This document shows, one piece after another, positions 1 to 5,910 of a stretch of 64,000 nt of DNA (its first letter is position 1; each line of letters starts with the position of its first letter). Source of the DNA: Synechococcales cyanobacterium C42_A2020_086 (GTDB lineage: Bacteria; Cyanobacteriota; Cyanobacteriia; Elainellales; Elainellaceae); assembly GCA_015272325.1 (NCBI GenBank), contig JACYLU010000029.1:1-64000 (forward strand), read 5' to 3'. Made by a program: the position numbers and the translations under genes. The notes under the pieces were generated by a model. The model was not told where the DNA came from and did not search any database. It saw only the letters and a program-made list of their open reading frames with translations.

Positions 1-1
1 G

Positions 2-643
2 CTTCTGCTGTTTTCCCCGCTTCATCTACTTAATATCTCTTTGAAAACAAGCTCTAAAGTACCCTTTAGATTTGGTGAAGTACGCCAAACTGGAACCGAA
101 AAGGTAGTTATTGTGCCGAGCGTTTCATCGGAAAGTCGCGAATACTTGCCTGTAGGGTATTGCAATTCAGGAACGATTGTCAGTAACCTTGCCTTTGCCC
201 TCTACGATGCCCCGCTGTGGAACATGGCGCTGATCGCCTCGCGGCTGCACCTGGTTTGGATCGCCACCGTCTGCGGCAAACTCAAAACCGACTTTCGCTA
301 CTCCAACACCCTAGGCTGGAACACCTTCCCCGTGCCCACCCTCACCGAGCAAAACAAAGCCGACCTCACCCGCTGCGCCGAAGACATCCTGCTCGCCCGC
401 GAACACTACTTCCCCGCCACCATTGCCGAAATGTACGACCCAGCCCGCATGGATACCGAGTTTCCCCTGGTGCGCGAAGCTCATGAACGCAACGACGAAA
501 CCCTAGAGCGCATCTACATCGGGCGACGGTTCAAAAACGACACGGAACGGCTAGAGAAACTGTTTGAGATGTACGTCAAGATGACCCGTCAGCAGGGTAC
601 AAGCAAGAAGTCAGGAAAACGGAAAACCCAAGGAGGAAAGTGA
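2..643 (+). CDS. MmeI-like class I DNA methyltransferase/restriction protein, C-terminal part (5' end outside window)
   Basis: The frame is open to the left edge, so this is the 3' part of a longer gene; the first in-window start-like codon is TTG at 41. The visible stretch FGEVRQTG, PSVSSESREYLPVGY, then VCGKLKTDFRYSNTLGWNTFP is the pattern that ends the target-recognition domain of MmeI-type (type IIL/IIG) enzymes, followed by the C-terminal helical region and a Lys-rich tail. The SAM-binding and NPPY regions would lie upstream and are not seen. The family methylates adenine, and in fused members also cuts at a distance. Bases up to about 180 are AT-rich while the rest is strongly GC-rich. 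It is the first gene of a same-strand row with a toxin-antitoxin pair, a helicase and a nuclease. Confidence in the family is good; whether the full protein is active cannot be judged. Confidence 0.8.
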   Translation, partial: LLLFSPLHLLNISLKTSSKVPFRFGEVRQTGTEKVVIVPSVSSESREYLPVGYCNSGTIVSNLAFALYDAPLWNMALIASRLHLVWIATVCGKLKTDFRYSNTLGWNTFPVPTLTEQNKADLTRCAEDILLAREHYFPATIAEMYDPARMDTEFPLVREAHERNDETLERIYIGRRFKNDTERLEKLFEMYVKMTRQQGTSKKSGKRKTQGGK

Positions 644-792: not shown

Positions 793-1125
793 ATGATTCA
801 AATTCAACTCAATTTGCCAATGGAGCAAATCGCTGAATTTTGTCAAAAATGGCAGGTCATAGAATTCGCGTTATTTGGTTCTGTCTTACGCGATGACTTC
901 CGCCCCGATAGTGATATTGATGTCATGGTCAAGTTTCATCCCGATGCTCACCCAAAATTCAGTACCCTCGACCAGATGGAAACAGAACTCAAAACGATTT
1001 TTCATCGCGATGTTGATCTGATTACTCGTCAAGGTATTGAATCCAGCCGGAATTACCTCCGTCGCCACGCAATTCTTTCCTCAGCCCAAGTAATTTATGC
1101 AACGGGATCTGCAATTTCTGCTTGA
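793..1125 (+). CDS. mntA: MntA-type nucleotidyltransferase antitoxin
   Basis: A 110-residue minimal nucleotidyltransferase. The signature is FGSVLRDDFRPDSDIDVMV (the GSx10DxD motif), with a later acidic residue in the DVDLI segment. I chose ATG 793 because GGAGG at 782-786 precedes it by six bases; the frame extends upstream only through a repeat. In characterised MntA/HepT pairs, MntA transfers AMP groups from ATP to a tyrosine of the HEPN toxin and so silences it. The stop overlaps the start of the HEPN gene by 29 bp, the usual coupling for this pair. The gene is more AT-rich than the helicase downstream, which suggests it arrived as a separate cassette. Confidence 0.85.
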   Translation: MIQIQLNLPMEQIAEFCQKWQVIEFALFGSVLRDDFRPDSDIDVMVKFHPDAHPKFSTLDQMETELKTIFHRDVDLITRQGIESSRNYLRRHAILSSAQVIYATGSAISA

Positions 1126-1435
1126 TATGCTGCAATCCGCAGAACTGATCATGACCTATACGACTCAATGTGAAAAGGAGCAGTTCATTAGCAATGTGCA
1201 GCTTCAAGATGCAGTGATTCGACGACTATTGGTGATTGCCGAAGCTGCAAGGCGAGTTTCAGAAACAACTCGACAAACCTTATCTAACATTTCTTGGCAA
1301 GAAATCAATGGAATGCGCAATCGCTTAGTGCATGACTATGATGATGTCAACCTCAATATCGTCTGGGAGGTGGTTCAGTCTGAGATACCGCACTTGATTG
1401 AGGAACTGAAGGCGCAGATCCCTCCTGAAAATTGA
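1097..1435 (+). CDS. hepT: HepT-type HEPN ribonuclease toxin
   Basis: A 112-residue all-helical HEPN (DUF86-like) protein. Near residues 75-82 it has RNRLVHDY, the Rx4HxY motif: Arg and His are the RNase site and the Tyr is the residue AMPylated by MntA in studied homologues. Length is typical of HepT. The start ATG at 1097 lies inside mntA in another frame, so the two are translationally coupled. The pair sits inside a defence-like row, consistent with either plasmid-style stabilisation of the locus or an abortive-infection role (inference). Downstream, 130 bp separate it from the helicase reading frame. Confidence 0.87.
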   Translation: MQRDLQFLLDMLQSAELIMTYTTQCEKEQFISNVQLQDAVIRRLLVIAEAARRVSETTRQTLSNISWQEINGMRNRLVHDYDDVNLNIVWEVVQSEIPHLIEELKAQIPPEN

Positions 1436-1565: not shown

Positions 1566-3704
1566 ATGGCTTCCCAATCCATGAGCAACCCGATCGCAAT
1601 TCCTTCCGTTTCCGTCACCTACGCCTAGGATGGCACCTCCACCAAAGCCAACGCTCTAGGGATGCGCCCCATGCAGGAACGCGCCTACCAAAAGCGCGGC
1701 GAACAATACCTGCTGATCAAATCACCCCCCGCCTCCGGCAAAAGTCGGGCACTGATGTTCATCGCCCTCGACAAACTGGAAAACCAGGGACTCAAACAGG
1801 CGATCATTGTGGTACCAGAAAAATCGATCGGGGCTAGCTTTCACAACGAACTCCTGAGCAAGTATGGCTTTTGGGCAGATTGGGTCGTCGAACCCTGCTG
1901 GAACCTTTGTGATGCTCCTGGCGGCGATAACGGCGGCAAAGTCGATGCGGTGAAAAAATTCCTAGAAAGCGATGCCAAAGTGCTGGTCTGCACCCATGCC
2001 ACCTTTCGCTTTGCCGTAGACAAGTTTGGGGTGGAGATGTTGGACGATCGCCTCATTGCCGTAGACGAATTCCACCATGTTTCCGCCAACCCTGATAACA
2101 AACTCGGCGACCACATTCGCCAACTCATGGCCCGCGACAAAACCCACATTGTCGCCATGACCGGTTCCTACTTTCGCGGCGATGCCGAAGCCGTGCTGCA
2201 CCCCGACGACGAAGCCCGCTTTGAAACTGTCACCTACACCTACTACGAACAACTCAACGGCTACCAATACCTGAAGCAACTGGATATTGGCTACTACTTT
2301 TATTCTGGTCGCTACAGCGACGAAATCATGCAGGTGCTTAACCCCAACGAAAAGACCATTCTGCACATTCCCAACGTCAACTCCCGCGAAAGCACTAAGG
2401 ACAAAATCCGTGAAGTCGAACACATCATCGAAGAACTGGGGGAATGGCAGGGCACCGACCCCCAAACCGGGTTTCAACGGGTCAAAACGGCTGACGGCAA
2501 GGTACTCAAAATTGCCGACCTGGTAGACGATGACCCCAGCAAGCGCGATCGCGTCGTTGCCGCCCTCAAAGACCCCGCCCAGAAAAACAACCGCGACCAT
2601 GTGGATATCATCATTGCCCTCGGTATGGCCAAGGAAGGCTTCGACTGGATCTGGTGTGAACACGCCCTCACCGTGGGCTACCGCTCCAGCCTGACGGAGA
2701 TTATCCAGATCATCGGACGCGCTACCCGCGATGCCCCCGGCAAAACCCGCGCCCGCTTCACCAACTTGATCGCTGAACCCGATGCCAGCGAGGAAGCCGT
2801 TACCGAGGCGGTGAATGATACCCTCAAGGCGATCGCCGCCAGCCTGCTGATGGAACAAGTCCTCGCCCCCCGCTTCGAGTTCAAACCCAAGCGCCCCGAT
2901 AATCAGCCCACTCCCGGCTTTGACTATGGTGAGGGCGGCTACGATCCCAATAAGTGCAACGTCGGGGTGAATCCTGAAACAGGGCAAATCCAACTGGAAA
3001 TCAAGGGACTCGCTGAACCCAAGAGTCCAGAAGCCACCCGCATCTGCCGCGAAGATTTGACTGAGCTAGTGACGGCGTTTGTGCAAGACAAGCCCTCCCT
3101 CGAACGCGGTCTCTTCGATGAGGAACTCGTCCCCGAAGAACTCACCCAAGTCCGTATGGGCAAAATCGTCAAAGAAAAATTCCCAAATTTAGACGAAGAA
3201 GATCAGGAAGCTGTCCGCCAACATGCGATCGCTGCCATCAACCTAGTGCAACAAGCCAAGCAACAGGTGAACGAAGCGACTGGAACTTACAACACCAATC
3301 CTGATGCGAGCAATCCTAGTATTACAACCCCCAGCCCCACTAGTTCCAGTGACAGCGGAACCACGAAAAATACGGCCCTTATCGACGGAGTCCGGCAGTT
3401 TGCTCTTTCCGTTACCGAGTTGGATATGGATTTGATCGATCGCATCAACCCCTTTGGCGAAGCCTACGCCATCCTCGCCAAATCCATGAGCGAAGAACGG
3501 CTTAAGCAGGTCGCAGAAGTCATTGCCGCCAAGCGGGTCAGCCTAACGGTAGAGGAAGCGCGAGAACTGGCCAAGCGGGCAAAGCGATTTAAGGAGGAGA
3601 GAGGTCGGTTGCCTTCTCTCACCGCAACCGATCCCTGGGAAAAACGCATGGCAGAAGGGGTAGCCTTCCTAACCCGCAAAGTTAAGGAGGAGCGCGATGC
3701 CTAA
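1566..3704 (+). pseudogene. DEAD/DEAH-like superfamily 2 helicase with an in-frame amber codon near its 5' end
   Basis: One frame runs from ATG 1566 to 3704, interrupted only by TAG at 1626-1628 (codon 21). The codons before it (NPIAIPSVSVTYA) and after it (DGTSTKANALGMRPMQERAY) look like one continuous protein start, so the TAG probably replaced CAG. The 680-codon stretch from ATG 1662 is intact: Walker A PPASGKSRA, motif II DEFHH, a helicase C-terminal half with IIQIIGRATRD (motif VI), then a low-complexity linker of Asn/Ser/Thr near residues 545-570 and a C-terminal helical region. The TAG removes only about 32 residues before the Q-motif-like segment. Reinitiation at 1662 could still make most of the protein, though only AGGG directly abuts that ATG. 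It overlaps the GIY-YIG gene by 8 bp. Listed as pseudogene because of the stop; it may be functional, suppressed or a read error. Confidence 0.7.
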
Positions 3705-4911
3705 ATACACCACCGATGAAGATTTAGAATTGCTCGATGAGTTGGGAGTGGACTTGGCTCCCGAACCCTCCAGCCAGCGCTCTGCTAGAGAAGAACGAAT
3801 CATTGCAGGCTTCGAGGAAATTGAGCGATTTGTAGAGGAAAAGGGCAGACTACCCCAACACGGGGATACCCATGATATTTTCGAGCGGCTTTATGCCGTG
3901 CGGCTCGATCGCCTGCGGGAATCGGAGGAATGTCGGGCTATCTTAAAACCCTTCGATTCCCGTGGACTCCTCGACGCTGAAGCAGAGAGTCTGACCTCAG
4001 CAGAGGTTTTGACCGATGAAGCATTGCTCGCCTCTCTGGGCATTGATGCCACTTCAGAAAATGACATCACTCAACTGACCCATGTGCGTAGCTTGCGCGA
4101 CAAAAGTCGTTCGCGCCGGGAAATCAGAGCGGCTGAAGAAATCGCCCAGCGCACACCCTGCAAAGACTTTGATCAATTCAAATCCATCTTTGACCAAGTG
4201 CAGCAGGATTTGCAGACCGGGGCACGGCAAACCGTCAAATATCAAGACAATGCGGTCGTCAACCCCGGCGATCTATTTATCCTTGATGGACAAAAAGTAC
4301 TCGTGGCGGAGATGGGAGAACCCTTCATCAGCGATTATGGTGTCCCTAACTGTCGCCTGCGGGTGGTGTATGACAACGGGACTGAGAGTGATTTACTGCT
4401 GCGATCGCTCCAGCGGGCATTGAACAAAGACAAAACCAGCCGCCGTATTACCAAACCTGAAACAGATTTCGGACCCCTATTTTCGCATGTTGAAGCAGAA
4501 GATGACTTGCCGACTGGCTATATTTACGTACTCAGAAGCCAATCCGATGATCCCTTCATTGCCGAGAATCGGTCAGTCATTCATAAAATCGGTGTGACAG
4601 GTGGCGATATCAAAAAACGAATTGCTAATGCTAAGCAAGACCCAACCTATCTGCTTGCAGACGTGGAAATCGTCGCAACCTTCAAACTGGCAAATATCAA
4701 TCGAAAAAAACTTGAGACAGTTCTTCACAATTTTTTTGACCATACTCGATTAGATGTCCAGTTGCAGGATCGCTTTGGCATCGCCGTAAAACCCAGAGAA
4801 TGGTTTCTGGTTCCACTAGAGGCAATTGAGGAGGCGATTGAAAAAGTTAAGGAAGGAACAATCAACCAGTTTCGATACGATCCGCAATCAGCCAGTCTGA
4901 CACGCTTGTAA
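3697..4911 (+). CDS. GIY-YIG (T5orf172/MUG113-like) nuclease
   Basis: A 404-residue protein. The C-terminal 120 residues hold a GIY-YIG fold: GYIYVL, then IHKIGVTGGDIKKRI (the YIG strand, in the KIG form usual for T5orf172), a glutamate in KKLETVLHNFF and REWF. The N-terminal part is acidic and helical, with the segment FVEEKGRLPQ at about residues 46-55, which resembles the end of the upstream helicase (FKEERGRLPS). The middle carries two segments that look like SH3-like or barrel domains (VVNPGDLFILDGQKVLVAEM). GAGG just before ATG 3697 and the 8-bp overlap with the helicase indicate tight coupling. Family members cut DNA; the target here is unknown. The pairing implies that the helicase delivers DNA to this nuclease (inference). 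Confidence 0.8.
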   Translation: MPKYTTDEDLELLDELGVDLAPEPSSQRSAREERIIAGFEEIERFVEEKGRLPQHGDTHDIFERLYAVRLDRLRESEECRAILKPFDSRGLLDAEAESLTSAEVLTDEALLASLGIDATSENDITQLTHVRSLRDKSRSRREIRAAEEIAQRTPCKDFDQFKSIFDQVQQDLQTGARQTVKYQDNAVVNPGDLFILDGQKVLVAEMGEPFISDYGVPNCRLRVVYDNGTESDLLLRSLQRALNKDKTSRRITKPETDFGPLFSHVEAEDDLPTGYIYVLRSQSDDPFIAENRSVIHKIGVTGGDIKKRIANAKQDPTYLLADVEIVATFKLANINRKKLETVLHNFFDHTRLDVQLQDRFGIAVKPREWFLVPLEAIEEAIEKVKEGTINQFRYDPQSASLTRL

Positions 4912-5039: not shown

Positions 5040-5910
5040 TAGCAGTCCCAAATCAGATGTGAGAATCTAGAGGGGTTACAGTGCATTTGAAAATTGCTCC
5101 ATGCTAGAGGACCTCAATACCTTCATCCACTCCAATCCCGATGCACGCGAACTGAAACGGGCTGTTGCAGTCCAGATGTTCCTGAACGGCTACAAGCACC
5201 GAGAGATCGGTGAGAGTTTAGGGGTCAATTCAGCCTTCATCAGCAAGTGGACTCAGCGCTACGAAGCATTTGGGGTGTCAGGCTTGCACCTCGCCTACCC
5301 TGGCTTGGTTGGCTATCTTACAGATGAACAACTCAAGCCATTATTGCTTGGCTGAGGAGCAAGAATTATTGGCATCTGGCGGAGTTGCAGGAGCATGTTG
5401 AGCAGGCGTATGGCGTTGTGTTTGAGTCTAAGCAGAGTTACTACAGTCTGTTCGAGCAAGCGGGGATCAGTTGGAGGAAGACCCAGAAGCGCAATCCCAA
5501 GACAGCCCTAGAGGCGGTCGAAAAAAAACAGGAAATTAGCACCTGGCTTGCAGCCCATCGAGATGAACTATGCTCTGGAGAGTTAGCGGTGTTTTTCGAA
5601 GACGAGTGCCATCTGCTATGGGGAGACCTCTGCGGCTATGTGTGGGGCAAGACTGACGAACGCATTGAGGTTCCTATCGCTAACGAGCCAAAAGATTACC
5701 TGTATTCGCTTTGCTGCCAACGACCCGAAGCAGAATCCAATATGAGGATATTTGGTTACAGGCGAAGCGGTTCATTAGGGAGTACTATCACTTGTGTACC
5801 TCGTTTGATGTGACCAAGTTCCTATTTGAGTTTGTGACTCATCGCCAAATCTTTGATTTCCCTAAGCTCTTCACTTATGGCCGCTTCTCACAACTCATTT
5901 AGAATCGCTA
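5040..5910 (+). mobile_element. IS630-family insertion sequence remnant with intact ends
   Basis: Imperfect terminal inverted repeats are visible: 5038-5065 (begins TATAGCAGTCCC) pairs with 5885-5912 read in reverse (begins TATAGCGATTCT), 22 of 28 positions matching. Both ends carry TA, the target duplicated by IS630 elements. The interior is a degraded transposase. The element could be mobilised only by a transposase supplied elsewhere. It separates the defence-like genes from the histidine kinase. Confidence 0.8.
5101..5902 (+). pseudogene. IS630-family transposase, frameshifted and internally deleted
   Basis: Four frame segments reconstruct one transposase. Segment one, 5101 to about 5345, holds the helix-turn-helix (YKHREIGESLGVNSAFISKW). 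Segment two, about 5350-5689, continues as LRSKNYWHLAELQEHVE and includes the first catalytic Asp in VFFEDECH and WGDLCGYVWGKTDERIEVP. Segment three, 5692-5741, reads KITCIRFAANDPKQNP. Segment four, 5744-5902, reads EDIWLQAKRFIREYYHLC and runs to the natural C-terminus. About 70-80 residues between PIANE and KITC, including the second catalytic Asp of the family, are missing, so the enzyme cannot be active. The first frame change could be a programmed one, as in two-ORF relatives, but the deletion and the change near 5743 are damage. Confidence 0.85.

Follow-up and report, generated by a model that had tools for sequence, protein, structure and literature searches.

The DnmA-YeeB-YeeC cluster of Bacillus subtilis, suggested to be a type I-like system whose methylase is needed for restriction, is among the closest known counterparts of the locus considered here (PMC9973331, PMC7261158). 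DnmA is one of the MmeI homologues that lack an endonuclease motif, and the cluster has itself been called a restriction-modification relic (PMC7261158, PMC9973331). The B. subtilis cluster is reported to give no protection against phages, and deletion of the dnmA and yeeB homologues of Vibrio crassostreae is reported to lead to greater sensitivity to some phages (PMC9973331, PMC7261158). Decay of restriction-modification genes is documented in cyanobacteria, as Anabaena sp. 90 carries 13 restriction-modification pseudogenes, and nonsense mutations account for 10.1% of the 227 pseudogenes in that genome (PMC3542288).

The DNA analysed here, termed the window, comprises positions 1 to 64,000 of contig JACYLU010000029.1 (C29) from Synechococcales cyanobacterium C42_A2020_086, and all lesions described below were read from a draft assembly of 38 contigs. 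To judge from gene order and domains, the locus at the beginning of the window is an operon of the DnmA-YeeB-YeeC type, a type I-like restriction-modification system. There is a remnant of an MmeI-like methylase gene upstream, followed by a gene for an SF2 helicase and then by a gene for a T5orf172/GIY-YIG nuclease. This is the same order and the same domains as in B. subtilis. What the locus lacks in the assembly is a functional methylase, which is needed for a live system but not for common descent. B. subtilis keeps an active DnmA, whereas the methylase is the broken part here, and the two clusters also differ by the MNT-HepT type toxin-antitoxin pair (793-1435, plus strand; PF01909, PF01934) that separates the methylase remnant from the helicase gene. 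The remnants match the Pfam models for the N-terminal, helicase-spacer, target-recognition and C-terminal domains of MmeI-family (type IIG/IIL) enzymes. However, MmeI is a single-chain enzyme, whereas separate helicase and nuclease genes come after the methylase at this locus.

For comparison, 80 homologous loci were fetched with the window helicase from position 1662 onwards, and these come from cyanobacteria, verrucomicrobia, proteobacteria, Bacillota and others. Most of them have MmeI-like sequence upstream, and all have the nuclease downstream. Two of the helicases from Bacillota (L048 and L067) are 76-77% identical to that of the window, and the gene is carried by 4 of the 36 genomes of the organism's own family.

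The helicase gene (1581-3704, plus strand), which encodes a YeeB-like protein with domains PF00270 and PF04851, is interrupted by a premature amber codon at 1626-1628 on the same strand. When the intact homologue L028 is used as the query in a six-frame search, the whole query aligns to window positions 1581-3701 with 88% identity and with a single internal stop, the TAG. Both the reading of the frame and this independent search bear out the preliminary description, in which ATG 1566, the TAG and ATG 1662 were placed in one phase. From ATG 1566 the codons translate as MASQSMSNPIAIPSVSVTYA before the TAG, which is the only one, and as DGTSTKANALG followed by MRPMQERAYQKRG after it. Because the codons on either side of the TAG agree with the N-terminus of the homologues, and because the 26 sense codons of 1581-1661 differ from those of L028 at 1, 1 and 11 sites in codon positions 1, 2 and 3, respectively, the occurrence of TAG in this frame is not due to chance. 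The same pattern indicates that this segment was coding until recently. The amber codon is therefore genuine in the assembly and breaks an authentic helicase frame.

With the residue that corresponds to position 1662 as the anchor, the N-termini of the homologues were read in the upstream direction without leaving the frame. Every one of the 80 has the block (I/V)PSVSVxYAxxGxSTKxNxLG and, after it, MRPMQ or a sequence close to this. Within the block, P8, N24 and G27 are invariant and Y14 and G18 are each present in 79 of the 80. The methionine encoded at 1662 is likewise found in every homologue, and it serves as the start in none of them. A natural start at 1662, which the preliminary description had named as one of the observations that would overturn its reading, was accordingly rejected, since a conserved in-frame extension precedes this position in all 80 homologues. 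In cyanobacterial relatives the protein opens with MSNPIAIPS, MSKPIAIPS or a similar sequence, and the counterpart here is ATG 1581 (MSNPIAIPS). The real start is therefore most likely ATG 1581, not ATG 1566, with 1566-1580 probably being leader, and the amber is codon 16. The earlier numbering as codon 21 is a correct count from ATG 1566, the start that the homologues do not favour. An AlphaFold model of L028, built with the role of residues 1-27 in mind, is of low confidence, with a mean pLDDT of 57 and values below 50 at the N-terminus. A profile search of the PDB returned no relative.

At the amber site, cyanobacterial relatives have CAA, CAG, CAC, CAT, AAA or CGC. The CAG-to-TAG change proposed earlier is thus compatible with a codon that occurs in relatives, although CAA is the most frequent, and we regard this origin as plausible but not proven. 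Had the ancestral codon been CAG, the one seen in L005, the mutated base would be the inner C of a CCAGG sequence (window 1623-1629). This is a context prone to deamination wherever 5-methylcytosine is made there, and its relevance to position 1626 is hypothetical.

Apart from this stop, the helicase and nuclease genes are in excellent condition. In leave-one-out tests, none of the 295 near-invariant columns of the helicase downstream of the stop is violated, nor are any of the 79 near-invariant columns of the nuclease, which agrees with the earlier view that both are intact. The nuclease is a YeeC-like GIY-YIG/T5orf172 protein (3697-4911, plus strand; PF10544 and PF13455) whose start overlaps the helicase end by eight bases and is served by a strong ribosome-binding site of its own. 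There are no internal stops in the 80 fetched homologues, and when 386 genomes of the phylum were sampled, the window copy was the only near-full-length helicase with one. The pristine state of the remaining helicase and of the nuclease indicates that the stop is recent, as the preliminary description had supposed, and silencing is its likely effect. Taken with the distribution of differences over codon positions, it also suggests that both genes were under selection until recently. In two of the related loci, the match to the nuclease homologue falls into two separate pieces (L008, 2228-3435; L028, 3658-4835), suggesting frameshifts in these operons or assembly errors.

The methylase gene is in a very different state. 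The window opens at a contig end (C29) within a gene for an MmeI/DnmA-like methylase, of which only the second half of the target-recognition domain and the C-terminal domain are left (56-643, plus strand; PF20466 and PF20467). The Pfam matches to MmeI_TRD (2.7e-47) and MmeI_C fall on window positions 2-640. The N-terminal part is located on another contig of the same genome (G000:C26:115-849, minus strand), oriented toward the contig end, and includes MmeI_N and part of the helicase-spacer domain. This piece is frameshifted near residue 245, at NWVS/FPYVNGG, with NWVS in the starting frame and FPYVNGGLFSGRVEVPRF in another. Beyond the frameshift it runs into a 53-base repeat end that is distinct from window positions 1-55. 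The catalytic domain MmeI_Mtase (PF20473) spans residues 361-644 in L014, where the motifs DPACGSGNF and NPPY stand at 385 and 527, respectively; it is in neither piece and nowhere in the assembly. From the order of residues and the absence of other intact copies, we infer that a single gene copy was divided into these two pieces. A simple single insertion into the methylase gene is excluded by the missing residues. Deletion of the core and a double insertion are both compatible with the data, as short contigs may have been dropped.

Both edges of the gap resemble the ends of a mobile element. Window positions 1-55 are identical to the start of contig C36 and to the end of contig C32, forming three right ends, and the 53-base end on C26 also occurs at contig ends of C31 and C34, forming three left ends. 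An inverted terminus, AAACAAGCTCT, is common to the left and right ends. Thus, three copies of an element are implied whose interior is unassembled, which means that small contigs may be missing and that the methylase core could sit on one of them. The repeat looks like an insertion sequence. The 59-bp repeat end has no plasmid match, there is no copy of the repeat in the 35 other genomes of the family, and no target-site duplication was found between any left and right flank, so that none joins C26 and C29. In addition, broken transposase-like open reading frames are located just downstream of the nuclease gene (5101-5813), with HTH_23 in one piece and HTH_33 in the next, and these are probably an IS630-type remnant.

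Several explanations of the amber codon can be weighed against this background. Perhaps ribosomes terminate at 1626 and begin again at the next in-frame ATG (1662-1664, plus strand), or at 1671, to produce a working helicase that lacks the first 27 residues and keeps the RPMQ and Walker motifs. The restart codon lies only 33 bases past the stop, all downstream motifs are intact, and an otherwise pristine helicase would also be expected of a functional reinitiated protein. However, such a protein would lack the block kept in 80/80 homologues with its near-invariant residues, its methylase partner is broken, and the restart site is poor. The predicted energy of the anti-Shine-Dalgarno duplex is -0.3 kcal/mol at ATG 1662, compared with -1.5 kcal/mol at the start at 1581, which is also weak, and -11.1 kcal/mol at the nuclease start at 3697, and ATG 1662 lies within a local fold of -17.9 kcal/mol. 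We therefore consider a working reinitiated helicase unlikely. Of the reinitiation suggested in the preliminary description, a weak form is possible, yielding a product without the conserved block, whereas an efficient one is disfavoured by the lack of a ribosome-binding site. A related proposal, that the shortened helicase and the intact GIY-YIG nuclease, perhaps with MNT-HepT, retain a function that needs no methylase now that the DnmA-like one is lost, is very unlikely.

Reading of the TAG as an amino acid, by suppression or recoding, would be in keeping with a frame that stays open before and after the stop. Yet no CUA anticodon is present among the 39 tRNAs detected with Rfam and ARAGORN, a list that is incomplete and omits expected species such as Ile-GAU and Leu-UAA. 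TAG is an ordinary terminator in the window, ending 16 of 39 large non-overlapping open reading frames and being the commonest terminator among them, and no homologue has a stop at this site. A recoding organism would combine a CUA-anticodon tRNA with avoidance of TAG as a terminator, and neither feature was found here. The suppression that had been raised earlier is thus hardly conceivable, and the same observations, together with the near absence of a Shine-Dalgarno sequence at 1662, favour neither suppression nor efficient reinitiation. The draft status of the assembly could point instead to an error at 1626, where the true codon would be a sense codon. This is decidedly improbable. The difference amounts to a single substitution, all other bases of the region being in line with the family, and the frameshift and repeats that were independently seen to disrupt the neighbouring gene of the operon make real decay the simpler reading.

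The preliminary description also raised the possibility of a lone single-base off switch in an intact defence system, and the pristine remainder of the helicase and the nuclease would suit a switch that is selected and reversible. This idea is contradicted by the methylase gene, which is frameshifted, split by repeats and devoid of its catalytic domain in the assembly, lesions that no single base could revert. Moreover, inspection of the window sequence revealed no repeat or phase-variable tract at 1626, and there is no alternation at the site in any homologue. A selected switch is therefore highly improbable. Because the partner gene is also broken, the amber is best viewed as one lesion of an ordinary dying operon.

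Very probably, then, this operon is turning into a pseudogene, wherein the helicase has acquired a nonsense mutation and the methylase has been frameshifted, disrupted by repeats and left without its catalytic domain in the assembly. Since the family is thought to be type I-like, with the methylase carrying target recognition, loss of the methylase would have made restriction impossible or useless. Should the whole complex depend on the methylase for target recognition, this loss would have sufficed to end restriction. The helicase would then have been released from selection and the stop codon tolerated, with little or no helicase being produced. The nuclease gene has a strong ribosome-binding site to itself, so its translation may continue, albeit with no partners for the product. 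There is no essential difference from the restriction-modification pseudogenes of Anabaena sp. 90, where nonsense, frameshift and insertion lesions likewise occur near insertion sequences (PMC3542288). Pseudogenization is known in kind, and no new regulatory mechanism is revealed by this example.

The MNT-HepT pair is also found near the helicase gene in six other loci (L006, L011, L013, L016, L023 and L024) and, in decayed form, in a relic elsewhere in this genome, and may thus be a passenger that recurs with the operon among cyanobacteria. That relic (G000:C11:18-20 kb; L121) is an older one, in which two methylase C-termini in degenerate form are found together with the remains of MNT and HepT and with a piece of the helicase. 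Another older relic, a methylase fragment with five stops, is located at 204-205 kb of contig C37. Systems of this family were probably acquired and lost by the genome on earlier occasions. The locus thus documents the decay of a widespread, little-studied restriction-type operon, with lesions in the methylase and helicase genes and an intact nuclease gene, and the presence of a decaying operon and older relics in one genome supports the repeated gain and loss of such systems.
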